Below are positions 6,165-58,503 of a stretch of DNA of 64,000 bases, one piece after another (the first letter of the stretch is position 1; each line of letters starts with the position of its first letter). A model generated the notes under the pieces. The model was given only the letters and a program-made list of their open reading frames with translations, did no database searches and was not told where the DNA came from. The position numbers were made by a program, and so were the translations under genes. Source of the stretch: Microcoleus sp. FACHB-68 (GTDB taxonomy: Bacteria > Cyanobacteriota > Cyanobacteriia > Cyanobacteriales > Oscillatoriaceae); NCBI RefSeq assembly GCF_014695715.1, contig NZ_JACJOT010000013.1, forward strand, positions 124,001 through 188,000, in the 5' to 3' direction.

Positions 6165-9100
6165 ATGCTAGGCAATCAACAGCAAGTGCAAACCTTCGGT
6201 GACATTTCAATGGGGGATGGAAATGTCTTTACGATTAATCAAATCATTCAAGTTACAGCCTCAGAAATTCAGACTCGTCCCCTGAACCGAACTTCACCTT
6301 ATCGAGGATTAAAAAGATTCGAGTCTTCAGATAAAGACTTGTTTTTCGGTCGAGATCAATTAATTGCTAGTTTGATTAAAGCCATAAGTCAAAGTAATCT
6401 AATTTTACTATTGGGTGCATCTGGAAGTGGGAAATCATCCGTTGTGCGTGCCGGCTTGATTCCGCAACTGGCAGAAAGACTTGGCTCCAATTTTCAAGAT
6501 TTTACCCTCACACCCGACAGAGATCCCTTTGAATCACTGCGAATTAGCCTGATTAGTAAAGGTTACAAACAAGCTGAGGCAGAAATTGCAACTAAAAATG
6601 ACTCAGAAAGCTTAATACAAGTTATCAAAACTCTCAAAAATGATCAGTGTCAGTGGCTTATTTTTGTTGATCAGTTTGAAGAGATTTTTACCCTGTGTCA
6701 CGATTTAGAAAAACGTCAAAAATTTATTAATAGAATTGTCCATGTCGCTGAAAGTGAGGATCAATCTGTCAAAGTTGTTTTGGCAATGCGGGCGGATTTT
6801 CTTGATCGATTCAGTCCTTATCCAGCACTGGGGAAAATTGCCGAGAAAAATATTCACCTCGTTACGGATATGCACACCGATGAGTTGCGCCTAGCCATTG
6901 AGCAACCGGCAGCTAATCATGGGGTGGTATTCCAGCAGGGATTAGTTGAAGAAATTATCCAAAACGTTCAAGGACAAGCCGGCTCTTTGCCTTTATTACA
7001 ATATACGCTTGATTTACTTTGGAAAAATGATGATATTCAAGACCGAACATTGAACACTCAAACCTATTGGAATTTGGGTGGGGTTCGGGGTGCATTGCAG
7101 CGTCATGTGGATGAGATTTACAAGAAGTTGACTCCAGAAGAACAGGAGACAACGAAGCAAATATTTCTGAGATTAGTGAATATTGCCAGCACCACTGAAC
7201 AAATCGATGTGGGGGGAAAAGCCGTAAGCCGGCGGGCGAATCTTTCAGAGTTTAGTGAGAATTCCCAAAAGCTGCTGAATCAGTTCATTGACAATAAGCT
7301 CTTAGTCAGTAATCGCCAAGAACAATCGACGGTAGAAATTGCCCATGAAACGCTGATTAATTCCTGGGATACCTTGAAAAAATGGATAGAAGATAGCCAA
7401 GAAATTATTCTAATTAGAAATCGCTTGTGTGAAGATGCCAAAAACTGGAAAAAAGCGCTGGCTGACTCCAAGGTGAAGGCTGAGGATGAACTCTGGAGTG
7501 GCTCGAAATTAGCCCAAGTGGCCGAACTGCGAGAGAAAAAAGAGTTTGATAGACTCGGTGGGTTAAGTGAAGAAGAAAATCAATTTATTGATGCTGGGAT
7601 TCAGAAGCGCGATCGCATACGTCGGCAAGAAAAACAACGCATACAGCGCCTGCTCTCAGCCGCTTCCATAACCACCCTATTCTTTGCAGGGTTTGCCATT
7701 TTTGCAGGAGTGCAGTGGAGAAAAGCAGAACTTGAGCAAATTCGGGCTTTGAGCATCACCTCAGAAACGCTCTTTTTGTCCGATAAACCGCTAGACGGAC
7801 TCATGAAAAGTTTAGAGGCAAGAAAAAAGCTTAATTCAGCATTGTGGCCAGATGCAGAACTGCAAAATCAAGTGAGACGAACACTGCAAAAGATAGTTTA
7901 TGAGGTGCGAGAGCAAAACCGTCTCGAAGGCCATCAAGGCACGGTCTACAGCGTCATATTTAGCCCCGACGGCAAGCAACTGGCGACTGCATCAGGGGAC
8001 GGCACTGTTAAATTGTGGGATTTATCGGGAAAGCAACTGGCCACGTTTACAGCCCATAAAGTCGCGGTCACCAGCGTCATATTTAGCCCCGACGGTAAAC
8101 AACTGGCGACTGCTTCCTTTGACGACAGCACGGCTCGCTTGTGGGATTTATCGGGAAAGCAACTGGCTACATTTACAGGCCATGAAAGCTCGGTCAGCAG
8201 CGTCATATTTAGCCCAGACGGCAAGCAACTGGCGACTGCTTCCTTTGACGACACGGCTCGCTTGTGGGATTTATCGGGAAAGCAACTCGCCACATTCACC
8301 GGCCATCAAGACGTGGTCAACAGCGTCATATTTAGCCCCAACGGCAAGCAACTAGCGACTGTGTCACGGGACGAAACAGCTCGCTTGTGGGATTTATCGG
8401 GAAAGCAACTAGCCACATTTACAGGCCATGAAAACTTTGTCAACAGCGTCATATTTAGCCCCGACGGTAAACAACTGGCCACCGCTTCCTCGGACGGCAC
8501 GGCTCGCTTGTGGGATGTATCGGGAAAGCAACTGGCCACATTTACAGGCGATCAAGGCCCGGTCAACAGCGTCATATTTAGCCCAGACGGCAAGCAACTG
8601 GCGACGGCTTCCTTCGACGGCACGGCTCGCTTGTGGGATTTATCGGGAACCCAACTGGCCAGATTCACCGGCCATGAAAGCTCGGTCAGCAGCGTCATAT
8701 TTAGCCCAGACGGCAAGCAACTGGCGACTGCGTCCTGGGACAACACGGCTCGCTTGTGGGATTTATCGGGAAAGCAACTCACCACATTCACGGGCCATGA
8801 AAGCTCGGTCAGCAGCGTCATATTTAGCCCAGACGGCAAGCAACTGGCGACTGCGTCCTGGGACAACACGGCTCGCTTGTGGGATTTATCGAGAAAGCAA
8901 CTAGCCACATTCACCGGCCATCTAAGCTTCGTCAACAGCGTCACATTTAGCCCAGACGGCAAGCAACTGGCGACGGCTTCCTTCGACAAAACGGCTCGCT
9001 TGTGGGATTTATCGGGAAAGCAACTCACCACATTTACAGGCCATCAAGAAAGTGTCCGCAGCGTCATATTTAGCCCAGACGGCAAGCAACTGGCGACGGC

Positions 9101-9560
9101 TTCCGATGACAACACGGCTCGCTTGTGGGATTTATCGGGAAAGCAACTGGCCACATTTACAGGCCATCAAGAAGGAGTCAACAGCGTCATATTTAGCCCA
9201 GACGGCAAGCAACTGGCGACGGCTTCCGATGACAACACGGCTCGCTTGTGGGATTTATCGGGAAAGCAACTGGCTACATTTACAGGCCATAAAAGCGTGG
9301 TCAACAGCGTCATATTTAGCCCAGACGGTAAGCAACTGGTGACTGCTTTATGGGACGGCACTGCTCGCTTGTGGCAAATTGAAGATATCGATGAGCTGAT
9401 GGTGCGGGGTTGCAATTGGGTGCGCGACTATCTCAACAACCCAACTGCCAATCTCACCCCAGAACACCGGCACCTTTGCGATCATATTCCCACTTCCCCC
9501 TCATCTACCCCCGTTGAGAAAATCCCAACTTCCCAAACCACAAGCCACAATAAACAGTAG
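6165..9560 (+). CDS. nSTAND-type NTPase with 12 near-identical WD40 repeats
   Basis: An 1131-residue signal-sensing ATPase. Residues 1-30 hold the QVQTFGDISMGDGN tag shared with the upstream gene. The NTPase follows: SPYRGLKRFE lead-in, Walker A GASGSGKS at 84-91, Walker B WLIFVDQFEE at about 164-173, AMRADFLDR at about 207-215, and a helical region to about 480. A basic stretch and one membrane helix (about 497-516) come next. Residues 588-1075 form 12 WD40 units of 41 residues, nearly identical, so recently amplified. The tail (VRGCNWVRDYLNN...HRHLCD) is typical of cyanobacterial STAND-WD40 proteins. STAND proteins oligomerise on ligand binding and switch on an effector, often in immunity or cell death. 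The ligand is unknown. Confidence 0.9.
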   Translation: MLGNQQQVQTFGDISMGDGNVFTINQIIQVTASEIQTRPLNRTSPYRGLKRFESSDKDLFFGRDQLIASLIKAISQSNLILLLGASGSGKSSVVRAGLIPQLAERLGSNFQDFTLTPDRDPFESLRISLISKGYKQAEAEIATKNDSESLIQVIKTLKNDQCQWLIFVDQFEEIFTLCHDLEKRQKFINRIVHVAESEDQSVKVVLAMRADFLDRFSPYPALGKIAEKNIHLVTDMHTDELRLAIEQPAANHGVVFQQGLVEEIIQNVQGQAGSLPLLQYTLDLLWKNDDIQDRTLNTQTYWNLGGVRGALQRHVDEIYKKLTPEEQETTKQIFLRLVNIASTTEQIDVGGKAVSRRANLSEFSENSQKLLNQFIDNKLLVSNRQEQSTVEIAHETLINSWDTLKKWIEDSQEIILIRNRLCEDAKNWKKALADSKVKAEDELWSGSKLAQVAELREKKEFDRLGGLSEEENQFIDAGIQKRDRIRRQEKQRIQRLLSAASITTLFFAGFAIFAGVQWRKAELEQIRALSITSETLFLSDKPLDGLMKSLEARKKLNSALWPDAELQNQVRRTLQKIVYEVREQNRLEGHQGTVYSVIFSPDGKQLATASGDGTVKLWDLSGKQLATFTAHKVAVTSVIFSPDGKQLATASFDDSTARLWDLSGKQLATFTGHESSVSSVIFSPDGKQLATASFDDTARLWDLSGKQLATFTGHQDVVNSVIFSPNGKQLATVSRDETARLWDLSGKQLATFTGHENFVNSVIFSPDGKQLATASSDGTARLWDVSGKQLATFTGDQGPVNSVIFSPDGKQLATASFDGTARLWDLSGTQLARFTGHESSVSSVIFSPDGKQLATASWDNTARLWDLSGKQLTTFTGHESSVSSVIFSPDGKQLATASWDNTARLWDLSRKQLATFTGHLSFVNSVTFSPDGKQLATASFDKTARLWDLSGKQLTTFTGHQESVRSVIFSPDGKQLATASDDNTARLWDLSGKQLATFTGHQEGVNSVIFSPDGKQLATASDDNTARLWDLSGKQLATFTGHKSVVNSVIFSPDGKQLVTALWDGTARLWQIEDIDELMVRGCNWVRDYLNNPTANLTPEHRHLCDHIPTSPSSTPVEKIPTSQTTSHNKQ
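7915..9375 (+). repeat. 123-bp coding tandem repeat (WD40 array)
   Basis: Twelve head-to-tail units of about 123 bp inside the STAND gene. Units 7 and 8 (about 8665-8910) differ at only a few bases, and unit 2 has one extra codon. Variation concentrates in the codons after TGH and after TAS, the positions that form loops on the propeller face. Confidence 0.9.
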
Positions 9561-23790: not shown

Positions 23791-24089
23791 CATATTTAGG
23801 AAAATCTAATGGGTGCTGAGGCATTGCTGAGTCAATGTATTTCTAGCAGGCAAGATGCCGGCATCTTAAGCCGGTGCATCTCATATTTGCAAAAACATGG
23901 GAGTGGGAGCATCTTGCTCCCTAAGATTACAGCAAGCCTGCAATATGCCGGCACTACTAAAAATTTTCAAAAATGAGATGCTCCCTTTAGAATTGCTATA
24001 GATGAGTCATCAGGATAGGAATAGCGGTAGACCTTTGCGATTGATTCTGGATTTTGAGCAAATGCTTAGATCACTTAAACAACTCTCGT
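23791..24089. other. Repeat-bearing spacer before the NACHT gene
   Basis: Contains the palindromic GGGAGCATCTTGCTCCC repeat at about 23903-23922 and GCCGGC-rich stretches. No coding frame is supported. Confidence 0.5.
23898..23924. repeat. Dispersed GGAGCATCTTGCTCC repeat, copy 1
   Basis: GGGAGTGGGAGCATCTTGCT and following CCCT; the inverse form stands at about 52855-52876. A palindromic intergenic repeat familiar from filamentous cyanobacteria. Confidence 0.75.
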
Positions 24090-27000
24090 TTAATTGGGGA
24101 GAGGAACTCGCTGCCAAATTTTAATCGTTTTATCCTCACTCCCACTGACGATAAACTGCCCATCTTGACTAAAAGCAATAGACGTTACATCGGCAGAATG
24201 TTCGTTGAGTACACAACTTAACTTACCCGCAGGAAAGTGATGTAATCGCATCGCTCCATTTTCTCCGATACCTGCGATAATTTGCCAGTCTGGACTAAGA
24301 GCAACCTGCCATTGACGCTTGAAATGTACTGGCAGGGTGCGAAGGCGTTTACCTGTGTCTAAATCCCAAAATTCAACCGCTTCTCCTGCACTACTGCTTA
24401 CCAGGGTTTTACCATTAGGATTAATAGCAATGCTATAGACTGCTGATGAATACCAAAACCTAATGATGAACCATTGCCACAACTTGGTTAAATTAGGTGC
24501 AAGAGTCTGAAGCAGTTGACCTGTAGCTGTTTCCCAAACTTTAATACTTCTATCGCTACTACCGCTAACCAAAATTTGACCATCAGGAGTAAAAGCTAAA
24601 CCAGGCACTCCTAATGAATGTGCGGAAATACTGCGAATTAACTGCCGTTTAGGTAGATCCCAAATTTTCACAACCCCATCTCGACTGCCACTTGCTAGGT
24701 CTGTGCCGTCCGCAGTAATCGCCACACACCAAACTTTGTCTGAGTGCCCCGGCAGCGTGTCGCATTTCCCCGTCTTGATATCCCAAATTTTTAGGGTACT
24801 GTCATCGCTACCACTGACGAGCGTTTGACTGTCGGGAGTGAAGGCAACGCAACCTACAGGGGCAGCGTGTTCTGTGTAAGTCCGGATTAGAGAGGCTTGA
24901 CCATCAGCCGATAAACGCCACAGTTTCACGGTTTTGTCATAGCTGGCGCTAGCAATCGTTTTGCCATCGGGACTGAGGGCAACGTCAATTACAATATCAG
25001 CATGATCCGTGAGAGTAGAGGTACATCGCCAAGGTTGTCCGCCGGCTAAATGTTCGCGCAGTAAGTCGTGAATAAAGCGATAGCGCCCCCCCACTTGTTG
25101 GATGAGACGACGTTCTGCTGCGTAGCTAAGAAAGTCAACGTAATTGAGGGCAATAGCGCCACTACGCCATAATAAAAACCGTAAGGTGTAGTGTTCAATA
25201 ACAGCACGGCCACCCCCTAGAAGAATGCCGAAAAATAGCGCATAACTAAAGCCGGTGATTAAAGGTAAACTCCAAGCTATCTGGAATCTTATCAGGTTGC
25301 TTAACGACAATAACAACACAGTGAAAGGAAATGTAACTAAACTCAAAAATACGGCACTTTTTGCTGATTCAATTATGCCTTGATTGGGTTGATTCCTAAC
25401 TCTTATTTCATCTCCAATCAGCCCTCCAATCAGCCCTATCATCAGCCCAAAAATCAACCATATCATCAGATTTCTAATTAGCCCGAAAATCAGCCCTCCA
25501 ATCAGCCCTACAATCAGCCCTCCAATCAGCCCTCCAATAAGATTTTTAGTAAATTTTTGAGTGTTCCAGCTAATCGTTTCCGCAGGTTCTATTTTTTGCT
25601 CTAGCCCAAAAATCAGCCCAACAATCAGCCCAAAAATCAGCCCTCCAATCAGCCCTCCAATCAGCCCAACAATCAGCCCAAAAATTAGCCCTCCAATCAA
25701 CCCAAAAATCAGCCCTCCAATCAGCCGATAAAGTAGTTTGTATTTGGGCGATTCGAGTAAATCTGGCTGCATTTTTTCCAGGAGAAACTCAGTTTCCTTG
25801 CGTTCTCTCAGTTTTCGTGCTAACCACTGCAACCACCGTTTAGTATCTTTATCCGAATAGCGACTATGAGGCTTTTCTTTTAATTTTTTATCAATATATG
25901 CCGCAAATAATTGATTGCGGCTTTCTTCTAAATATTGTTGATTGGGTCGCTGTCTCCCTGAATTTACCTGTAAAGATCCTTCTGGATAAGCAATGGGAAT
26001 TAAATGCAGTAATAGGGGAACTCTTGCTAATGTCAATAAACCTTCCGGGTCACTTTTAACGGATGACCATAAATCGGCGCGTTGCAGTTCTTTCAAGTAA
26101 TTTTCAATTTGGGCATCTGTCAACGGCTGTATGCAAATTGCCCAGCCTAATTTCTGAAGTTTTGACTCACCCGTTTGATATTCTTGCACCCGGCAACAAA
26201 CCGCAACTTGTAAATCTGGATACTCTTGTAAACATTGATCAATCTTAGTAATACACTGAGTTTGCCGAACTAAGCCCAATTCATCTAAACCATCCAGCAG
26301 CGGCAATAACTGACCCGCTTCCAGCCAATTTTTAGTTTCATTTTCAGATATATTGAACCGATTTTTTAAGTCAGCCGCCAACCAATCTGCAATAGATAAC
26401 TTATCGTCTTTCCAGTTAGAAAGTTCAAATAGAAACGGAATAGTTTTATTCTCAGGTTGTTTAGCCTCAGCCAATAACTCCTCAGCCAATTCTAATAAAG
26501 TCGTAGTTTTGCCGGAACCAGGTTCTCCCAAAATTAACAGTCTGCCGTCGATGTCAGGGCGCTTAAAAATATTAATAACTTTTTCATTTTCTGGTACTTC
26601 CGTCTTAGGTTTTCCAAAAAATGATAATAAATTAAATCTTGGTTTATCCTGAAGTTTTGATTGCTTTTTTAATGGCTCTGTTCGGTTAACAGCTTGTGGT
26701 TGATCTTCTTTTATCAAGTCAATTCGAGTTTGATCATGGAGATTATCTTTTAACCGTTTCGCTACTTCCCTTTCCATTTCCTTTAGTAAAACTCGGCGCG
26801 AGTCTTTCACCACTTTTTCTGATGGCGTTGATTGATTACCCCGCCAAGCATCAAAAAATATTATGAATACTGGTAAAATAGTACCTGCAACAAATAGGAA
26901 TAAAGAAGCGATGCCGACATATTGAATTAATTTTGTAGGTAAATAACTACTTTTGAGTAAGCCAAACAATACAAAACTCCCGATCATCGGTAATAAACCC

Positions 27001-27221
27001 ACTAACCAAGGAAGATTATTTGTTTCGGCAGAAGAAGATGAGTTACTTGATTGACTGCTAACAACCCCAATGAGAATAATTGATATGATCGTTACAACCA
27101 AAACTATATTAAGATCAACATTTAGGTCAGATTTTCCCGGAAACTGGTTAATCCCCCAACACATCAAAGCATTAAGGGCGGTGACAGAGATACTTGGTAA
27201 AGATACTTTAATTTTTTGCAT
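24090..27221 (-). CDS. NACHT NTPase with Gly-Leu-Ile membrane repeats and WD40 domain
   Basis: A 1043-residue NLR-like protein. Residues 1-125 hold about three membrane helices. The NACHT domain follows, with Walker A GEPGSGKTT at 232-240 and Walker B LLPLLDGLDEL at 305-315. Residues 500-540 and 561-603 are built almost only from GLIG, GLIF and GLIV units, a glycine-zipper-like membrane region, followed by two ordinary helices (about 625-670). FIHDLLREHLAG ends the NACHT-associated part. Seven WD40 repeats (about 735-1040) make one propeller. NACHT proteins sense a signal, oligomerise and trigger an effector; several protect bacteria from phage. A membrane-permeabilising role is inference. 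Neighbours on the same strand are a toxin/antitoxin pair. Confidence 0.88.
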   Translation of the reverse strand: MQKIKVSLPSISVTALNALMCWGINQFPGKSDLNVDLNIVLVVTIISIILIGVVSSQSSNSSSSAETNNLPWLVGLLPMIGSFVLFGLLKSSYLPTKLIQYVGIASLFLFVAGTILPVFIIFFDAWRGNQSTPSEKVVKDSRRVLLKEMEREVAKRLKDNLHDQTRIDLIKEDQPQAVNRTEPLKKQSKLQDKPRFNLLSFFGKPKTEVPENEKVINIFKRPDIDGRLLILGEPGSGKTTTLLELAEELLAEAKQPENKTIPFLFELSNWKDDKLSIADWLAADLKNRFNISENETKNWLEAGQLLPLLDGLDELGLVRQTQCITKIDQCLQEYPDLQVAVCCRVQEYQTGESKLQKLGWAICIQPLTDAQIENYLKELQRADLWSSVKSDPEGLLTLARVPLLLHLIPIAYPEGSLQVNSGRQRPNQQYLEESRNQLFAAYIDKKLKEKPHSRYSDKDTKRWLQWLARKLRERKETEFLLEKMQPDLLESPKYKLLYRLIGGLIFGLIGGLIFGLIVGLIGGLIGGLIFGLIVGLIFGLEQKIEPAETISWNTQKFTKNLIGGLIGGLIVGLIGGLIFGLIRNLMIWLIFGLMIGLIGGLIGDEIRVRNQPNQGIIESAKSAVFLSLVTFPFTVLLLSLSNLIRFQIAWSLPLITGFSYALFFGILLGGGRAVIEHYTLRFLLWRSGAIALNYVDFLSYAAERRLIQQVGGRYRFIHDLLREHLAGGQPWRCTSTLTDHADIVIDVALSPDGKTIASASYDKTVKLWRLSADGQASLIRTYTEHAAPVGCVAFTPDSQTLVSGSDDSTLKIWDIKTGKCDTLPGHSDKVWCVAITADGTDLASGSRDGVVKIWDLPKRQLIRSISAHSLGVPGLAFTPDGQILVSGSSDRSIKVWETATGQLLQTLAPNLTKLWQWFIIRFWYSSAVYSIAINPNGKTLVSSSAGEAVEFWDLDTGKRLRTLPVHFKRQWQVALSPDWQIIAGIGENGAMRLHHFPAGKLSCVLNEHSADVTSIAFSQDGQFIVSGSEDKTIKIWQRVPLPN
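25413..25540. repeat. 12-bp coding minisatellite, block 1
   Basis: Repeats of CCAATCAGCCCT and close variants, encoding GLIG units on the minus strand. A change in copy number by whole units keeps frame. Confidence 0.85.
25603..25728. repeat. 12-bp coding minisatellite, block 2
   Basis: Same CCAATCAGCCCT/CAACAATCAGCC-type units as block 1, encoding residues about 499-540 of the NACHT protein. Confidence 0.85.
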
Positions 27222-27497
27222 GAGAAGTGTTTAAATAATCTAAAAAGTGTTGCTCCCATCCGCCGCATTAGCCGCCGAAACAAGAGCTAAAGCAGCCATG
27301 ATAATTTTCAAGTAATCCCTAGTGATCGCCTTTACCTCGTACATTCGCAAGACTATCCTAATTCTACTTCATCAAATTCCCAGCAAACTTCCCCAAAAGC
27401 GCTAGTCACCCACCGCAAAGCATCTGCCGGCATCCCAAGTGCAAACCCTTCTTAAAACCTAGCCAATATCTCCCGATCCTTCCGCTCTAAAGTGTTG

Positions 27498-27956
27498 TTA
27501 AGTGGTTGTCTCGCCGGCACTTTCTGGTGAAACTGCTACGATTCCTTCAGAGATGTATCGTTTAAAGTCCTCTACATTCAACGTAAGAATATGCGAAATA
27601 GCATTAACTTTCATTGATGCAACTAGCCGAGCATCGTGAACTTGAACTCCTGAAACACCAAATATAACAACTAGCCTACGCCATTCCTCATAAACCTTGG
27701 AACTATCAGGCAACACAGGAAAAAGCCGTTCAATTAACTGCAACAGTCGTTCGGCATTAGAAGGAGTTAATCCAAATCCATTTTTCGCCATAGGACGAGT
27801 TGCAACATTCCAAAACTCAACGCAATTTTGAGACGTGACTTGTAGCTTGTGTCCGTCTTGACGAAACTTTCGGATGGCAGTTCTAATTGAAGGATAGAGA
27901 GGATGAGAGCGATCTGCAAATCGCAATAGTATGTTTGTATCTATTAAGTAAACCAC
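27498..27956 (-). CDS. PIN-domain ribonuclease toxin (VapC-like)
   Basis: A 152-residue PIN protein. The acidic residues expected for metal binding are seen in VYLIDTNILLRFAD (D), NCVEFWNVATRP (E), VHDARLVASM (D) and LNVEDFKRY (D). It begins with GTG just behind the antitoxin stop, so the pair is translationally linked. VapC-type toxins cut tRNA or rRNA when freed from the antitoxin. It lies downstream of no other gene and next to the NACHT gene. Confidence 0.88.
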   Translation of the reverse strand: MVYLIDTNILLRFADRSHPLYPSIRTAIRKFRQDGHKLQVTSQNCVEFWNVATRPMAKNGFGLTPSNAERLLQLIERLFPVLPDSSKVYEEWRRLVVIFGVSGVQVHDARLVASMKVNAISHILTLNVEDFKRYISEGIVAVSPESAGETTT

Positions 27957-27958
27957 AC

Positions 27959-28231
27959 TCAGGGATGCTCCTCATAGATTCCCGCTCGACTAACAGCATC
28001 GTCTGATAAAACAGGTACAATATCTCCAGCGTACCTTTTAAATTCATCAGCCAAATGATCAGCCAGCGCTTCAAACGCTTCATCTCCTTGAACCGCATCA
28101 TCTTCTAATTGTTGTAAATTTAAACGCTCTTTGTTCCAAGCCAAGAATTCAACAAAATCTAGAACCTCCAGAATCTTAACTTTGGGTAAAGAGTGGAGCT
28201 TTTGTACAATTTCTTTGATCAAGGCTTCCAT
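27959..28231 (-). CDS. Antitoxin of the PIN toxin, DUF2281-like
   Basis: A 90-residue protein. The N terminus EALIKEIVQKLHSLPKVKILEVLDFVEFLAWNKERL matches the DUF2281 antitoxin pattern, and the acidic C-terminal part (DDAVQGDEAFEALADHLADEF) would wrap the toxin. I start at the ATG at 28231, which has GGAGG five bases upstream. The frame stays open to a GTG at 28330 and would add a hydrophobic 33-residue segment (see findings). Confidence 0.75.
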   Translation of the reverse strand: MEALIKEIVQKLHSLPKVKILEVLDFVEFLAWNKERLNLQQLEDDAVQGDEAFEALADHLADEFKRYAGDIVPVLSDDAVSRAGIYEEHP

Positions 28232-28409
28232 AGTTCCTCCGACCTTAGCGATCCATCCCATTAAAGCACCGGCACCCAAAGTCAGCAACAAAATACCCCC
28301 AGCAGCTACCAAATAATCGGCAGATGTCACGCCTCATATAAACTCTGTCTGACTAAGGGATTTTTATCTAAAACTATTAAAATTCATCAACACTGTTGTA
28401 GCTAAACCA

Positions 28410-28443
28410 ATGCCCCATGCCCCATGCCCCATGCCCCATGCCC
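28410..28443. repeat. CCCATGC heptamer array 1
   Basis: Nearly five tandem units of ATGCCCC just behind the M20 hydrolase gene. Related arrays stand at 41542-41604 and 43919-43950. Such short tandemly repeated heptamers are typical of filamentous cyanobacteria. Confidence 0.9.
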
Positions 28444-41541: not shown

Positions 41542-41604
41542 ATGTCCCATGCCCCATGCCCCATGCCCCATGCCCTATGCCCCATGCCCCATGCCCTATG
41601 CCCC
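41542..41604. repeat. CCCATGC heptamer array 2
   Basis: About nine ATGCCCC/ATGCCCT units in tandem; same family as 28410-28443 and 43919-43950. Confidence 0.92.
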
Positions 41605-41699
41605 ACATCAGCAATCTCTGCCGGCAGGCTTGATATTTGATCCCCTTTTCTGAGAAAATGAAAGGAATATGAAATTAATAGCGGTGAGCAAAATTGCTT

Positions 41700-43918: not shown

Positions 43919-43950
43919 ATGGGCATGGGGCATGGGGCATGGGGCATGGG
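43919..43950. repeat. GCATGGG heptamer array 3
   Basis: About four GGGGCAT units, the reverse-complement orientation of the arrays at 28410 and 41542. It directly follows the DUF2808 stop. Confidence 0.9.
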
Positions 43951-53127: not shown

Positions 53128-56100
53128 ATGCTTACCATTCCTGGCATTTCTGTTACAGCGCAAATCTATGAAAGCGCCAACTCCATTGTATATCGAGGAA
53201 TTCGACAGTCAGATGCTCAACCCCTGATCCTCAAAGTTCTTAAACAAGATTATCCGACGCCGGCTCAACTCAGTCGCTATCGCACAGAGTATCACATTAC
53301 CCAATCTCTGGATCTGGCAGGAGTGGTTAAGGCTTATGACTTACGGAAATATCAAAATACCCTGGTGATGTTTCTCGAAGATTTTGGCGGAATATCTTTG
53401 AAGCATTGGCTGCAGCAATGCCAATTTCCTTTAGAGGAATTTCTCAAAATTGCGATTGCAACAGTAGACGCATTAGGGCACATTCATGCCGCGAATATTA
53501 TTCACAAAGATATTAATCCATCTAACGTTGTTTTCAACAAAGAAACCAACCAATTAAAAATTATTGACTTCGGAATCTCCACCAAGTTAACGCGGGAAAC
53601 ACCGGCTTTAAAAAATCCTAACGTTTTAGAAGGTACTTTAGCTTATATGTCGCCGGAACAAACCGGCAGGATGAACCGAGCTTTAGATTATCGCACAGAT
53701 TTTTACTCGCTTGGGGTTACCTTTTACGAACTGCTGACGAATCAATTACCTTTTGAAACGGATGATGCGCTGGAATTAGTTCACTACCATATTGCTAAGG
53801 TGCCGGTGTCGCCATCTGAGTTAAATCCAGAAATTTCCCCCATTCTCTCAGATATCGTCATGAAACTTTTAGCAAAAACTGCTGAGGAAAGATATCAAAG
53901 TGCCTGGGGACTTAAAGCGGATTTAGAAAAATGTTTAAACCAGTTAAATTTAACGAGGAAAATAGCAAGTTTTGAACTAGCCGGTGAAGATATTTCAGAG
54001 CGATTTCAAACTTCGCAAAAACTCTATGGAAGAGAACAAGAAGTTGCCACCTTATTAACCGCTTTTGAGCGCGTCACTCACGCCCAGAGCGAACTAATGC
54101 TGATTGCCGGCTATTCTGGAATCGGTAAATCAGTCTTAGTACAAGAACTTTATAAACCCATTACCCAAAAACGCGGCTATTTCATTTCCGGTAAATTCGA
54201 CCAATATCAGCGTAATATTCCCTATAGCGCCCTTGTTATCGCTTTTCAAGAATTAATCAAAAACCTGTTAACTGAAAGTGAAGCGCAACTAAATCTATGG
54301 CGAGAAAAGTTATTAACAGCTTTGGGAATTAACGGGCAAGTCATTACCGATGTCATTCCAGAAATCGAATTAATTATCGGCAAGCAACCCCCTGTCCCAG
54401 AAGTCGGCCCAAATGAATCTCAAAATCGGTTTAATTTAGTTTTTCAAAACTTTATTAAAGTCTTTACGAAACCTGAACATCCCCTCGCATTATTTATCGA
54501 TGATTTGCAGTGGGCAGATGGCGCATCGTTAAAATTAATGCAGCTTTTAATGAGTGCCGCCTCCCCTGGATTATTTTTAATCGGTGCCTATCGGGACAAC
54601 GAAGTTTCCGCAGCACATCCGGTTATGTTAACTTTAGATGAAATTACCAAAGCCGGCGCAATTATCGAGCGCATTTTTCTATCGCCCTTAGACTTACCAA
54701 CTATCACACACCTAATTGGCGATACCCTCAAGTGTGAAACGGAAAGAGTTCAGCATTTAGCTGAGTTAGTGAAGTTTAAAACCGGCGGCAATCCCTTCTT
54801 TATGAATGAATTTTTGAAATCACTTTATACAGAAGAATTGTTAAAATTTGATATTGAAATTCGCCAGTGGCAGTGGAGTTTAGAGCAAATTCAATCGCGC
54901 GGCTTCACCGATAACGTCGTTGAACTCATGGCCGACAAGATTCAAAAGTTGCCAAAAAATACGCAAGATTTGTTAAAGCAAGCTGCCTGCATGGGTAATC
55001 AATTTAACTTAAATACCCTTGCCTTGATTGACGCTAAACTTTTGCGAGAAACGGTTGACGATTTATATCCAGCCGTCGCTGAGAATTTAGTGGTTCCTAT
55101 TGGCAATATGGGAGAAATAGAATTAGCAATTGATGCAACTGAACTCACCACTCGCTCATTACCAACAGTCTCATCCCAATCCCTGGAATATAAATTTGTT
55201 CACGATAGAATTCAGCAGGCTGCTTATTCCCTAATTGTCGAACAAGATAAGCCTGTTATCCACCGGCACATCGGGCAACTGCTGCTAAAAAATCTTCCTG
55301 AAAGCAAACGAGAAGAGAAAATCTTTGACATTGTTAATCAACTAAATTTTGGCATTAAACTGATCTCTAACCAGCTAGAAAGAAATGAACTAGCACAGTT
55401 AAACTTAGTTGTCGGCAAGAAAGCAAAATTATCCGCAGCCTATCAGCCGGCTTTAAGTTATTTGCAAACCGGCATCAACCTCTTAGCAACCAATTGCTGG
55501 CAGCAACAGTATGAACTCACCCTCTCACTGCACACAGAAGCAGCTGAAATTGCCTATCTCAACGCTGACTTTGTCTTAATGGAGAAATTTTTTGAGGCAG
55601 TCGTGTCCCAAGCAAAAACAGTCTTAGACACAGTGAAAGTGTATGAGGTAAAAATTCTGGTAGAGACTGTACAAAGCAAGTTTAATGAAGCCATCAATAT
55701 TGGACTAGAAGTGTTAAATTTACTAGGAGTAAAGTTGCCTAAACAACCTAATAAAGTAGATGTTTTAAGGGGACTGCTGCAAACAAAGTTTAGGATCGGG
55801 TTTAAATCAATTGCAAGCTTAGTGGACTTGCCGGTGATGAGTGATCCTTACCCAAAAGCAGCGATGCGTATCCTCACAAGAATTGCCCCCGCCACCTACT
55901 TTGCTGCAACGCTTCTATTGCCAGTTATTGTGTTTCAACAAATTCACTTATCTATTAAGTGGGGAAACACGAGTGACTCTGCTTTTAGCTATAGTTTATA
56001 TGGAATGATTCTCTGTGGGGTAGTTGGAGATATTCAGAGTGGCAGTCAATTTGGTAAACTCGCTCTTAATGTGATCTCCCGACTTGATGCAAGGGCTTTT

Positions 56101-58503
56101 AGAACCATGACGGGATATACTGTCTCTACCTTTATCACGCACTGGGTAGAGCCTCTCAAGGAAGTAGTAAATTTACTGCGGGAAGTTTACACGTTTGGAC
56201 TGCAAACAGGAGATTTGCAATTCGGTAGCTATGCAATCCACGTCTACTGCTCCATGAGCTTTCTGAGCGGCTCGGAATTGGTGAAATTGGAACCAGAGAT
56301 GGAAATTTATGCTCAGAATCTGCGTCAAATGGGACAAGAAACAGCTTTTAATATGCAAGACGTAGTGCATCAAGTTGTTTTAAATTTGCTAAGTAAAATT
56401 GAAAACCCTTGTAATTTAATTGGCAAAGCTTTCGACGAGCAGGTGATGCTGCCAAGACTAAACAGCCAAAATGATCGCACCACACTTGGTATTTTTTACT
56501 TCAATAAATTGATGCTTTGCGTTATGTTTTGTGAACTAGATCTGGCAATTAAAAATGTTGAATTAGGTGAACAATACCTTGATGGCAACACATCTACTTG
56601 CACAGTTGTTCACTTCTATTTTTATGAATCTTTAGCGCGTCTAGCCGTGGCAACAGATGCTCAGCAGTCAGAACAAAGTCGCCAAATACAGAAGGTTGTT
56701 AGCAACCAGAAAAAAATGAAAAAATGGGCACACCATGCCCCAGCTAATAACCTGCATAAATATTATTTGGTAGAGGCTGAGATTTGTCGAATTAGGGGAA
56801 AATATGCCTTAGCCATAGAATTTTATGATCGCGCGATTTCCCTTGCGAAAGAACACGAATACATCCACGAAGCCGCTCTTGCTTACGAACTTGCTGCCAA
56901 GTTTTATCTATTCCAAGGAAAAGAATTAACAGCTAAAGCTTATATGCAGGAGGCTCGGTACTGCTATCAGCTTTGGGGAGCAACGGCCAAGGTCAAGCAT
57001 TTAGAAATGCGACACGGCAACTTATTGGCTGCAAATCAAGAGAGTAGTCAAAATACTAAAGCGACCACAACACCGACTACCGGGTCAAAACACAGTCTTG
57101 ATATTGGCACAGTGATGAAGGCTTCTCAGGCAATTTCAGGTGAAATTGTGCTGGATAAGTTACTGTCTAGCTTGATGAAAATTTTGATTGAAAATGCCGG
57201 CGCACAAAAAGGCTATCTCATTTTAGAAAATCGAGGAAAGCTGCTAATTGAAGCGGAAGGGGCAATCGATTCTGAGCAGGTGAACGTACTTCAATCAATG
57301 CCGTTTGAGAAGTTCCAAAGCGCTTCTCAAGCAATTATCAATTATGTCTGCCGTACTCAAGAAAGTGTGGTTTTGAATGATGCGGCTCGTGAGGGGCAAT
57401 TTACCAAAGATCAGTACATCCAAGAACATCAGCCGAAATCGGTTCTCTGCGTACCCCTGATTAATCAAGGAAAACTGGTGAGTATTGTTTATCTGGAAAA
57501 TAATCTCACAGCCGGCGCGTTTACTGCTGAACGCGTGGAAGTGATTAAACTATTATCTTCTCAAGCGGCAGTTTCTATAGAAAATGCTAAGCTTTATACG
57601 GAAGTTAGGGAAAATGAGAGCCGGCTTGCTCAACTTAACTTGGATTTAGAGCAAGCTTTAGAAGCAGAATTAGAACTCTCTAGATCAGCAAGTCTCTTTG
57701 TTCCCAATCAATTCTTATCTTTGCTGGGTTATCAAAAGTTGACAGAAGCAAAGTTAGGAGATTCTGTCCAATTAGAAATGTCGATTCTATTTTCCGATAT
57801 CCGCGATTTTACAACGATTTCGGAAGGGATTACTCCGCCGGAGAATTTCAAGTTTATTAATTCTTATCTGTCTTGCATGGAACCGGCAATCGTTGAAAAT
57901 AATGGTTTTATCGATAAATATATCGGGGATGCAATTATGGCATTATTTAGCGGCGAGGCAGATAATGCCGTGAAAGCCGGCATTTCTATGCTCCACCGGC
58001 TTGCCCAATACAACCAATATCGCACCAGTTCTGGCTATCATCCCATTCAAATTGGCATCGGTATCAACACTGGCACCTTAATGTTAGGAACCGTTGGCGG
58101 ACAAAATCGCATGGATGGCACCGTAATTAGTGATGCGGTAAATCTAGCTTCGCGCGTAGAAGGTTTAACCAAAAATTATGGCCTGCCCTTATTAATAACC
58201 CAACAAACTTATGAACGATTGACGAAGCCGGCAGACTATGCAATTCGCACGATTGACACCGTAAATGTTAAAGGCAAATCCCAAGCCGTCACAGTTTATG
58301 AAATCTTTGAAGCTGACCCGCCGGCACTTAAAGCTGGTAAATTAAATACCCTACAATCATTTACAGAAGCCCTATCGCTCTACAATCTGAAACAGTTCAA
58401 TAAGGCGGCGCAACTGTTTGAAGAGTGCCTGAGTATCAATCCAGGCGATAAAGTCGCTCAAATTTATCGGCAACGCTGCTATCAGAATCGGCCCGAAATA
58501 TAG
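53128..58503 (+). CDS. Ser/Thr kinase - AAA ATPase - GAF - adenylate cyclase fusion
   Basis: A 1791-residue signalling protein. Residues 10-270 are a protein kinase with HAANIIHKDINPSNVVF (HKD for HRD) and KIIDFGIS. The AAA/STAND ATPase has Walker A GYSGIGKS at 328-335 and LALFIDDLQWAD as Walker B. A long helical (TPR-like) region follows to about 1310, then a GAF domain (about 1340-1490) and a class III cyclase (about 1550-1720) with both metal Asp in SILFSDIRDFT, GDAIMALF, and the N-R pair in NLASRVE. It is like the large cyanobacterial STHK proteins, but with a cyclase instead of a histidine kinase. Its product should be cAMP. Signal unknown. Confidence 0.93.
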   Translation: MLTIPGISVTAQIYESANSIVYRGIRQSDAQPLILKVLKQDYPTPAQLSRYRTEYHITQSLDLAGVVKAYDLRKYQNTLVMFLEDFGGISLKHWLQQCQFPLEEFLKIAIATVDALGHIHAANIIHKDINPSNVVFNKETNQLKIIDFGISTKLTRETPALKNPNVLEGTLAYMSPEQTGRMNRALDYRTDFYSLGVTFYELLTNQLPFETDDALELVHYHIAKVPVSPSELNPEISPILSDIVMKLLAKTAEERYQSAWGLKADLEKCLNQLNLTRKIASFELAGEDISERFQTSQKLYGREQEVATLLTAFERVTHAQSELMLIAGYSGIGKSVLVQELYKPITQKRGYFISGKFDQYQRNIPYSALVIAFQELIKNLLTESEAQLNLWREKLLTALGINGQVITDVIPEIELIIGKQPPVPEVGPNESQNRFNLVFQNFIKVFTKPEHPLALFIDDLQWADGASLKLMQLLMSAASPGLFLIGAYRDNEVSAAHPVMLTLDEITKAGAIIERIFLSPLDLPTITHLIGDTLKCETERVQHLAELVKFKTGGNPFFMNEFLKSLYTEELLKFDIEIRQWQWSLEQIQSRGFTDNVVELMADKIQKLPKNTQDLLKQAACMGNQFNLNTLALIDAKLLRETVDDLYPAVAENLVVPIGNMGEIELAIDATELTTRSLPTVSSQSLEYKFVHDRIQQAAYSLIVEQDKPVIHRHIGQLLLKNLPESKREEKIFDIVNQLNFGIKLISNQLERNELAQLNLVVGKKAKLSAAYQPALSYLQTGINLLATNCWQQQYELTLSLHTEAAEIAYLNADFVLMEKFFEAVVSQAKTVLDTVKVYEVKILVETVQSKFNEAINIGLEVLNLLGVKLPKQPNKVDVLRGLLQTKFRIGFKSIASLVDLPVMSDPYPKAAMRILTRIAPATYFAATLLLPVIVFQQIHLSIKWGNTSDSAFSYSLYGMILCGVVGDIQSGSQFGKLALNVISRLDARAFRTMTGYTVSTFITHWVEPLKEVVNLLREVYTFGLQTGDLQFGSYAIHVYCSMSFLSGSELVKLEPEMEIYAQNLRQMGQETAFNMQDVVHQVVLNLLSKIENPCNLIGKAFDEQVMLPRLNSQNDRTTLGIFYFNKLMLCVMFCELDLAIKNVELGEQYLDGNTSTCTVVHFYFYESLARLAVATDAQQSEQSRQIQKVVSNQKKMKKWAHHAPANNLHKYYLVEAEICRIRGKYALAIEFYDRAISLAKEHEYIHEAALAYELAAKFYLFQGKELTAKAYMQEARYCYQLWGATAKVKHLEMRHGNLLAANQESSQNTKATTTPTTGSKHSLDIGTVMKASQAISGEIVLDKLLSSLMKILIENAGAQKGYLILENRGKLLIEAEGAIDSEQVNVLQSMPFEKFQSASQAIINYVCRTQESVVLNDAAREGQFTKDQYIQEHQPKSVLCVPLINQGKLVSIVYLENNLTAGAFTAERVEVIKLLSSQAAVSIENAKLYTEVRENESRLAQLNLDLEQALEAELELSRSASLFVPNQFLSLLGYQKLTEAKLGDSVQLEMSILFSDIRDFTTISEGITPPENFKFINSYLSCMEPAIVENNGFIDKYIGDAIMALFSGEADNAVKAGISMLHRLAQYNQYRTSSGYHPIQIGIGINTGTLMLGTVGGQNRMDGTVISDAVNLASRVEGLTKNYGLPLLITQQTYERLTKPADYAIRTIDTVNVKGKSQAVTVYEIFEADPPALKAGKLNTLQSFTEALSLYNLKQFNKAAQLFEECLSINPGDKVAQIYRQRCYQNRPEI

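Follow-up and report, generated by a model that had tools for sequence, protein, structure and literature searches.

A predicted membrane module within the winged-helix part of a cyanobacterial NACHT family, written in part by a 12-bp repeat, and its possible role in defence

The 64,000-nucleotide stretch analysed here (the window; positions 124,001 to 188,000 of contig NZ_JACJOT010000013.1 of Microcoleus sp. FACHB-68, host genome G000, 6.5 Mb) carries on its reverse strand, at 24090..27221, an open reading frame (ORF) that starts with ATG and encodes a protein of 1043 residues, P0001. The host's genes (ndh, ycf48 and psb types, named by eye) and the named relatives point to a cyanobacterium. 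The parts of P0001 follow in the order N-terminal hydrophobic region, linker helix, NACHT NTPase, helical part, zipper region, winged-helix half and WD40 propeller (Table 1). NACHT (PF05729, residues 228-379; score 39.4 bits, cut-off 26.7) was the best of the 23 Pfam families that matched at E up to 1, and NB-ARC was absent from these 23. The Walker A motif GEPGSGKTT lies at residue 232 and the Walker B motif DGLDE at residue 310; the signatures G.PG.GKTT and DGLDE were unchanged across 14 aligned sequences. WD40 repeats fill the C-terminal third (about residues 736-1037), and the N-terminus has hydrophobic segments at residues 31-60, 70-91 and 97-127. The zipper amounts to about 84 residues of GLIx tetrads within a membrane module of about 180 residues. 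Block 1 (residues 500-539) has ten LIxG tetrads and block 2 (residues 561-604) eleven, several of them degenerate; GLI units number 16, and the hydropathy of the two blocks is 2.65 and 2.41. The pattern GxxxGxxxG occurs in the modelled membrane helices. An earlier note, written from the DNA letters, had named the NACHT and WD40 domains and two GLIx blocks coded by a 12-bp repeat, all of which were borne out by Pfam, the ORF translation and Tandem Repeats Finder. To these we add the N-terminal hydrophobic region (residues 8-126) and a third hairpin (residues 614-668).

Table 1. Features of P0001 and its surroundings, in window coordinates
Feature	Position	Strand	Basis
Whole ORF, 1043 residues, N-terminal transmembrane region to WD40 propeller	24090..27221	-	ORF call, domain scans, model
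N-terminal hydrophobic region, residues 8-126, four modelled helices, low confidence	26844..27200	-	hydropathy; block pLDDT 41-67
Linker helix, residues 135-161, family motif EVxxRLxxSLH (in P0001 EVAKRLKDNLH)	26739..26819	-	alignments, model
NACHT NTPase, residues 228-379, Walker A and Walker B	26085..26540	-	Pfam, alignment
Hairpin 1, residues 492-537 (helices 492-518, 520-537), zipper block 1	25611..25748	-	hydropathy, two models
12-bp minisatellite array 1, coding-strand unit GGG CTG ATT NNN	25603..25726	-	Tandem Repeats Finder, codon analysis
Loop 1, residues 543-553, majority pattern in relatives IxPVETLxWSW (in P0001 IEPAETISWNT); modelled strand 549-552	25563..25595	-	alignments, model
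Hairpin 2, residues 554-598, most of zipper block 2	25428..25562	-	hydropathy, two models
12-bp minisatellite array 2	25412..25538	-	Tandem Repeats Finder
Loop 2 with NQGI motif, residues 601-620; N613 invariant in 62 sequences	25362..25421	-	alignments
Hairpin 3, residues 614-668, no repeat	25218..25382	-	two models
Winged-helix half, residues 671-727 (HYTLRF...RFIHDLLREHLA); 38-residue spacing	25041..25211	-	alignments, model
WD40 beta-propeller, residues 731-1038	24108..25031	-	domain scan, model, structure search
Variable block from a conserved left flank (genes of ycf48/psb type, named by eye) to the amidohydrolase-type gene; both congeners have different cargo here	23797..28409	.	flank comparison
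Two small upstream genes in the variable block: PIN-domain protein and partner with sub-cut-off DUF2281 match	27498..28330	-	domain scan

Relatives of P0001 were gathered from three sources: the 148 genomes of the order (an initial 60, then all, with the better part of the matches fetched), a single scan of named genomes that kept the best 80 of 241 matches to a cyanobacterial query, and a single scan of viral contigs. The resulting family set holds 163 non-redundant proteins, P0001 included, 161 of them cyanobacterial and two on viral contigs. Sequences with no recognised P-loop, weak matches, identical cores, a spacing in the winged helix other than 38 residues (see below) or an open 3' end were left out, and a few members are open at the 5' end. 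The core was matched at E 0.001 in 123 of the 148 genomes, in not all of which the module need be present, and all 79 loci among the matches listed from the named genomes are cyanobacterial. Phage records gave no match to the core, and the viral contigs gave two loci at about 30% identity. Matching plasmid records numbered 27, of which 26 are cyanobacterial and 16 mobilizable or conjugative; one Streptomyces plasmid matches part of the core query at 26.7%, in searches that were not aimed beyond cyanobacteria.

The zipper had been placed by the earlier note between NACHT and WD40. This order is correct, but the blocks interrupt the NACHT/STAND core, lying upstream of the winged-helix half with no finished NACHT module before them. 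The element 3' of the zipper (residues 671-727) is folded as helix-helix-beta hairpin-helix in both of our models and has an F-H-LL motif; it was assigned as a winged helix by this topology and motif, with no profile, and its motif stretch HYTLRF...RFIHDLLREHLA spans residues 677-727. The spacing from HYTLRF to RFIHDLL is 38 residues in 93 of 96 aligned relatives, and in 83 of 87 aligned proteins from the named genomes plus the two viral contigs. In P0001 the membrane insert parts this half from the helical part. The length of the insert is 170-230 residues in 129 family proteins, longer in 20 and 60-169 residues in ten. Four complete relatives have a short insert at the module site, 21 residues in L007, from the same genome as P0001, and 41-57 residues, approximately one hairpin, in the three others. 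These short inserts reveal the insertion point. From the alignments and the models, the membrane module is thus a predicted set of three hydrophobic hairpins that grew within the winged-helix portion of the STAND core; the 12-bp repeat writes two of the three. A first block of 111-127 residues is seen in L172, L185, L211 and L218 (Nostoc and allies), and one of up to 191 residues in L105; the long blocks of the former four hold an extra polar mid-stretch, suggestive of whole added hairpins.

The AlphaFold model of full-length P0001 (62 sequences; mean predicted local distance difference test score, pLDDT, 83.6; predicted template modelling score, pTM, 0.73) places helices at residues 492-518/520-537, 554-579/581-598 and 614-644/651-668, that is, three hairpins, followed by the winged helix and the propeller. 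When the module was modelled alone (60 sequences), the identical six helices were obtained with a pLDDT of 87.2 and a pTM of 0.77. Across the two models the hairpin blocks have pLDDT of 78-95; the N-terminal helices of the full-length model have 41-67. In 37 low-zipper relatives both zipper segments have a central minimum of mean hydropathy, and each segment can thus be read as a hairpin; this minimum is shallow in 35 high-zipper relatives. Loops 1 and 2 are probably cytosolic, because their lysines and arginines (3.6 and 3.2) exceed the aspartates and glutamates (1.9) in 24-residue windows of 123 full-size relatives. The prediction of membrane topology called for by the earlier note gave a strongly hydrophobic region, modelled as membrane hairpins and not as a soluble one, and no housekeeping transport role for homologues turned up in the searches made. 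With the module model, Foldseek found no solved fold at E 0.001. The best VIA match was Tim22 (Z 8.0 over 110 residues), below the level needed for helical bundles, as a Z under about 13 may be just a common arrangement for such bundles. The listed Foldseek matches of the full model were led by propellers, so the NACHT part was hardly probed by structure, and a sequence search of the core gave no solved relative better than E 0.2.

The repeat is distinctive as DNA. Tandem Repeats Finder scored the array at 25603-25726 at 150 with a 12-bp period and 185 with a period of 24, and the array at 25412-25538 at 114 with a 12-bp period. Within the window, AATCAGCCC has 13 copies, all 13 inside the two arrays and none elsewhere; the number expected elsewhere from dinucleotides, in both orientations, is 0.72, and the accumulation is not due to chance. 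We examined codon use in the 69 zipper-rich proteins (at least six GLI each; together they carry 43 names of genera or codes of groups, possibly overlapping). In their 819 GLIxG tetrads the first glycine is GGG in 87%, the leucine CTG in 80% and the isoleucine ATT in 96%, while a glycine at the fourth position (n=115) is GGA in 68% and GGG in 4%. GGG is commoner at the first than at the fourth position in 24 of the 25 proteins with at least two units that have a fourth-position glycine; in P0001 itself the first glycine is GGG in 14 of 14 and the fourth GGA in six of six. The controls differ: P-loop glycine is GGG in 22% and conserved leucine CTG in 10%; hairpin 3 of the zipper-rich proteins has GGG in 24%, CTG in 17% and ATT in 60%; and the zipper blocks of 49 zipper-poor proteins have 33%, 21% and 57%, respectively. 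The zipper codons thus track the position in the repeat, and neither the amino acid nor the membrane setting. The 124-bp array matches arrays in other families (G016, G040) at 85-87% identity, where the protein cores are 45% identical, a likeness best explained by continued slippage plus exchange among genes; use of the GGG-CTG-ATT word at the level of DNA is conceivable as well. The idea that the zipper DNA is a mobile sequence in other genes was dropped, since the five matches read individually, all in less expected places, revealed no other gene class (L240 is a partial NACHT-type ORF, and those in L242, L248 and L252 seem to be repeats or sequences of an unrelated kind). At about 1501-1562 of L237 (G054:C47), five 12-bp units stand outside any intact ORF and are probably what is left of a family member since lost.

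Sister pairs indicate how the module changes. Among 45 pairs, formed with no protein in more than one pair and with a BLASTP value of at least 70% in NACHT, 39 had zipper blocks less alike than NACHT. Where one member or both had at least ten tetrad links (33 pairs), the medians were 87 for NACHT, 65 for the zipper, 68 for hairpin 3 and 92 for the winged helix, and in the extreme pair, L011/L045, NACHT stood at 89, the zipper at 38 and the winged helix at 94. Hairpin 3, which has no repeat, changes too, so that slippage alone is insufficient and, on these alignments, cassette exchange or relaxed constraint must add to it. The earlier note had expected slippage of 12-bp units to alter helix length with no frameshift. 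Block lengths do vary among relatives: in 18 zipper-rich pairs, taken at a threshold of at least 80% in NACHT (one of the four that were tabulated), they differ in 22 of 36 comparisons, by multiples of four residues in ten of the 22 (p 0.03) and, in the second block alone, in seven of 12 (p 0.014). In 17 low-zipper pairs (set by the lower member, so that mixed pairs fall here), lengths changed in 18 of 34 comparisons, by multiples of four in five of the 18 (p 0.48). We rejected the possibility that length changes in the zipper-rich pairs alone, as the low-zipper pairs change in nine of 17 for each block; it is the multiple-of-four excess, a modest one, that is particular to the zipper-rich pairs. 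Slippage in the family is moderately supported by the sequences. The comparisons suggest that the module is gained, lost and rewritten quickly among relatives.

The ends of the family proteins are variable. Ahead of the P-loop (counted stop to stop), 87 of the 163 have fewer than 180 residues, 51 have 180-279 and 25 have more; 77 (of the 87 short ones) combine a short N-terminus with the lack of an N-terminal hydrophobic segment. Scans of long N-termini gave a kinase (L027, L092), a CHAT domain (L086), a cyclase (L081) and no clear domain (L113). A C-terminal tail of more than 50 residues is absent in 130 of the 163, of WD40 size (320-350 residues) in nine and of another kind in 24. Matches to the WD40 region of P0001 (to residues 821-902) are listed for L012, L013, L014, L016, L017 and L019, and the tails of L040 and L088 are WD40 by eye; scanned tails also gave an S26 signal peptidase (L018, L060, L137), ClpS with TPR (L030) and a sub-cut-off zinc ribbon (L168). 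In a FastTree tree of the conserved parts (51 of 160 inner branches weak), at least 13 changes of the C-terminal state are counted, and at least 27 between zipper-rich and zipper-poor, with 27 intermediate rows left out of the latter count. Because the C-termini vary and are mostly missing, WD40 is, as far as these sequences tell, an optional add-on, which does not fit the fixed design with WD40 as the sensor that the earlier note had envisaged. In raw counts the zipper seemed tied to the absence of an enzyme at the N-terminus (12 or more tetrad links in two of 25 proteins with a long N-terminus versus 62 of 131 others, p 1e-4), but this link was not supported once ancestry was counted (two independent pairs on supported branches, median p 1) and probably reflects one clade. 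The nearest relatives of P0001 are L157 (Planktothrix) and L040/L148, the latter with a degenerate zipper. L157 (5629-7626; 79% in NACHT) is missing the second zipper block and most of WD40, by natural deletion or decay. L018, L060 and L137 are fusions of the NACHT-transmembrane core to the S26-like domain; that of L018 has, by eye, IRR in place of the usual catalytic lysine, and is perhaps inactive.

The gene lies in a block that differs among congeners (Table 1). The flanks are conserved in two of them, with 96% DNA identity on the left and 93% and 91% on the right. An ortholog of P0001 is absent from both, the best matches there being paralog-type proteins of 42-43% identity. At the site, G002 has a 546-residue AriAB-like (PARIS) ORF (PADLOC E 8e-55) and, by eye, a DUF433/PIN-like pair, and G001 (L265 2789-6867) has an 885-residue ORF with no PADLOC match and a 500-residue ORF of which only the end is LmuA-like (E 5e-12). 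The two G001 ORFs are a possible new defence pair. In P0001's own block, the PIN-domain gene and its DUF2281-like partner are likely a toxin-antitoxin pair. None of ten other window proteins tested matched PADLOC at 1e-5. Heptamer repeats ATGCCCC / GGGCATG occur at 28410-28443, 41542-41605 and 43921-43950, one of them at the right edge of the variable block. Elsewhere in the window, a second STAND protein (6165-9560, plus strand; nSTAND1 PF20703, E 1.8e-116) has a WD40 array whose DNA is a 123-bp tandem repeat (7928-9374, 11.7 copies, 86% matches), and a 1791-residue protein (53128-58503, plus strand) has kinase, AAA_16, GAF and guanylate cyclase domains plus TPR.

Neither NACHT proteins nor proteins that combine STAND with WD40 are new as such. 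The usual description of a STAND switch is of a soluble protein whose effector and sensor occupy opposite ends; Avs and bacterial NACHT proteins are STAND proteins that act against phage. With these (PMC10907252), P0001 shares the NACHT NTPase, Walker A and B, a STAND-type core, variable N- and C-terminal parts and a defence-like location. It differs from them in the six-helix membrane module that interrupts its winged-helix part. Apaf-1, which is a soluble STAND protein with WD40 and an AP-ATPase/NB-ARC domain, has the order NTPase, winged helix and WD40 in common with P0001; NB-ARC is lacking among the Pfam matches of P0001, and Apaf-1 is not known to have a membrane insert. Apaf-1 was the Foldseek match of rank 4 among those listed for the full model, over 918 columns, but with a TM score of 0.28 and a root-mean-square deviation of 24. 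The fungal HeLo/HELLP cell-death domains on NLRs likewise tie a glycine-zipper membrane helix to an NLR-type protein; there the helix is an N-terminal effector, whereas in P0001 the hairpins are inside the STAND core. GxxxG-rich hairpins, as in the family module, are found also in Tim17/Tim22/Tim23 and Romo1, and weak Pfam matches (E up to 0.1) occurred among 60 members for Tim17 (ten) and Romo1 (13), with none in P0001; this likeness is likely convergence. Among the papers listed from the open-access literature (most subscription journals lie outside it), no title or abstract start was evidently about a membrane module set within a winged helix, or about the repeat of such a module.

Our tentative reading is that P0001 belongs to a large cyanobacterial family of NACHT/STAND switches embedded in the membrane, that it probably serves defence, and that on activation its hairpins are brought together and the protein acts at the membrane; we hold this to be possible, short of probable. 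In the resting state, as in Apaf-1, the winged helix and the WD40 propeller would keep an ADP-bound NACHT closed. A signal of infection, arriving through WD40 or the membrane itself, would lead to nucleotide exchange and oligomerisation of NACHT. As the hairpins are built into the rotating part of the switch, many glycine-faced hairpins would be gathered together with the N-terminal helices, the membrane would be disturbed and the infected cell stopped. The 12-bp repeat would let the hairpins lengthen, shorten or be homogenised with no frameshift, and by this flexibility the module would change faster than the rest of the protein. At the site, the defence role is suggested by the AriAB-like and LmuA-like genes in the two congeners. 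With 77 of 163 N-termini short and non-hydrophobic and 130 of 163 proteins devoid of a tail, the module is, in the minimal form of the family, the only visible candidate for the output.

Several observations weigh against this reading. The hairpins have few polar residues, so that a path for conduction is not apparent. Support for a role in defence comes from a single site compared across three genomes, and no PADLOC or NCBIfam defence model matches P0001 over most of its length: the best PADLOC match, HEAT-ARM_XIII (E 1.4e-18), covers the WD40 part only, PDC-S60 covers residues 212-349 (E 3e-9), and NCBIfam matches are far below cut-off (EruA, 16.9 bits against 1000). Fast change is not universal, as the medians of 11 zipper-poor pairs are 92 for NACHT and 91 for the module; these pairs are generally closer, and divergence is seen in the three most distant (76/31, 75/62 and 69/25). 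Disruption of the membrane, the output proposed in the earlier note, is something that we only infer, because the module also sits with kinase, CHAT and cyclase domains; since relatives with such N-termini carry it, its shared job may be anchoring or sensing.

The main rival, conceivable if somewhat doubtful, is that the module is an anchor, or a sensor for membrane stress or a phage membrane protein, and that the output is the N-terminal part (the transmembrane region in P0001, a kinase, CHAT or cyclase in scanned relatives) or a WD40-bound partner. The module is constant while the N-terminal enzymes vary, it is located in the regulatory winged-helix region, P0001 has an N-terminal hydrophobic region of its own, and fast divergence would suit a recognition surface; yet the 77 proteins with a short N-terminus and no N-terminal hydrophobic segment would have no visible output unless a partner protein is used. 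A switch for signalling or membrane homeostasis in filamentous cyanobacteria (development, stress, control of proteolysis), with no part in defence, is unlikely. The breadth of the core (123 of 148 genomes) and the fusions to kinases, ClpS and the S26 peptidase would suit it, but the gene is missing at the site in both congeners, where defence-like genes stand instead, relatives reside on plasmids, and the module turns over rapidly. That the zipper is a by-product, a slippage tract spreading neutrally where any hydrophobic hairpin suffices and saying nothing on function, is very improbable: the GGG CTG ATT word with its glycine codon set by repeat position, the repeated changes of zipper state on the tree and the degenerate zipper of L040, the nearest relative with a full WD40 tail, are in its favour, but the prevailing insert length of 170-230 residues suggests that size and hydrophobicity are kept.

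Returning to the membrane-embedded switch, we consider it a tentative possibility that in this family of NLR-like proteins slippage and exchange of the DNA word GGGCTGATTNNN, kept across dozens of genera, create and rewrite the module for output or sensing. The membrane part would lie in the moving hinge of the switch; in zipper-rich lineages it changes faster than its surroundings, with the DNA repeat as the apparent engine. If the reading built on GGGCTGATTNNN is true, the protein would be an immune receptor that carries within itself an engine for altering its membrane-spanning part. The minimal members of the family make the proposal directly testable. If it holds, cyanobacteria would possess an immune-like receptor wired straight into the membrane, with simple repeats supplying its diversity.

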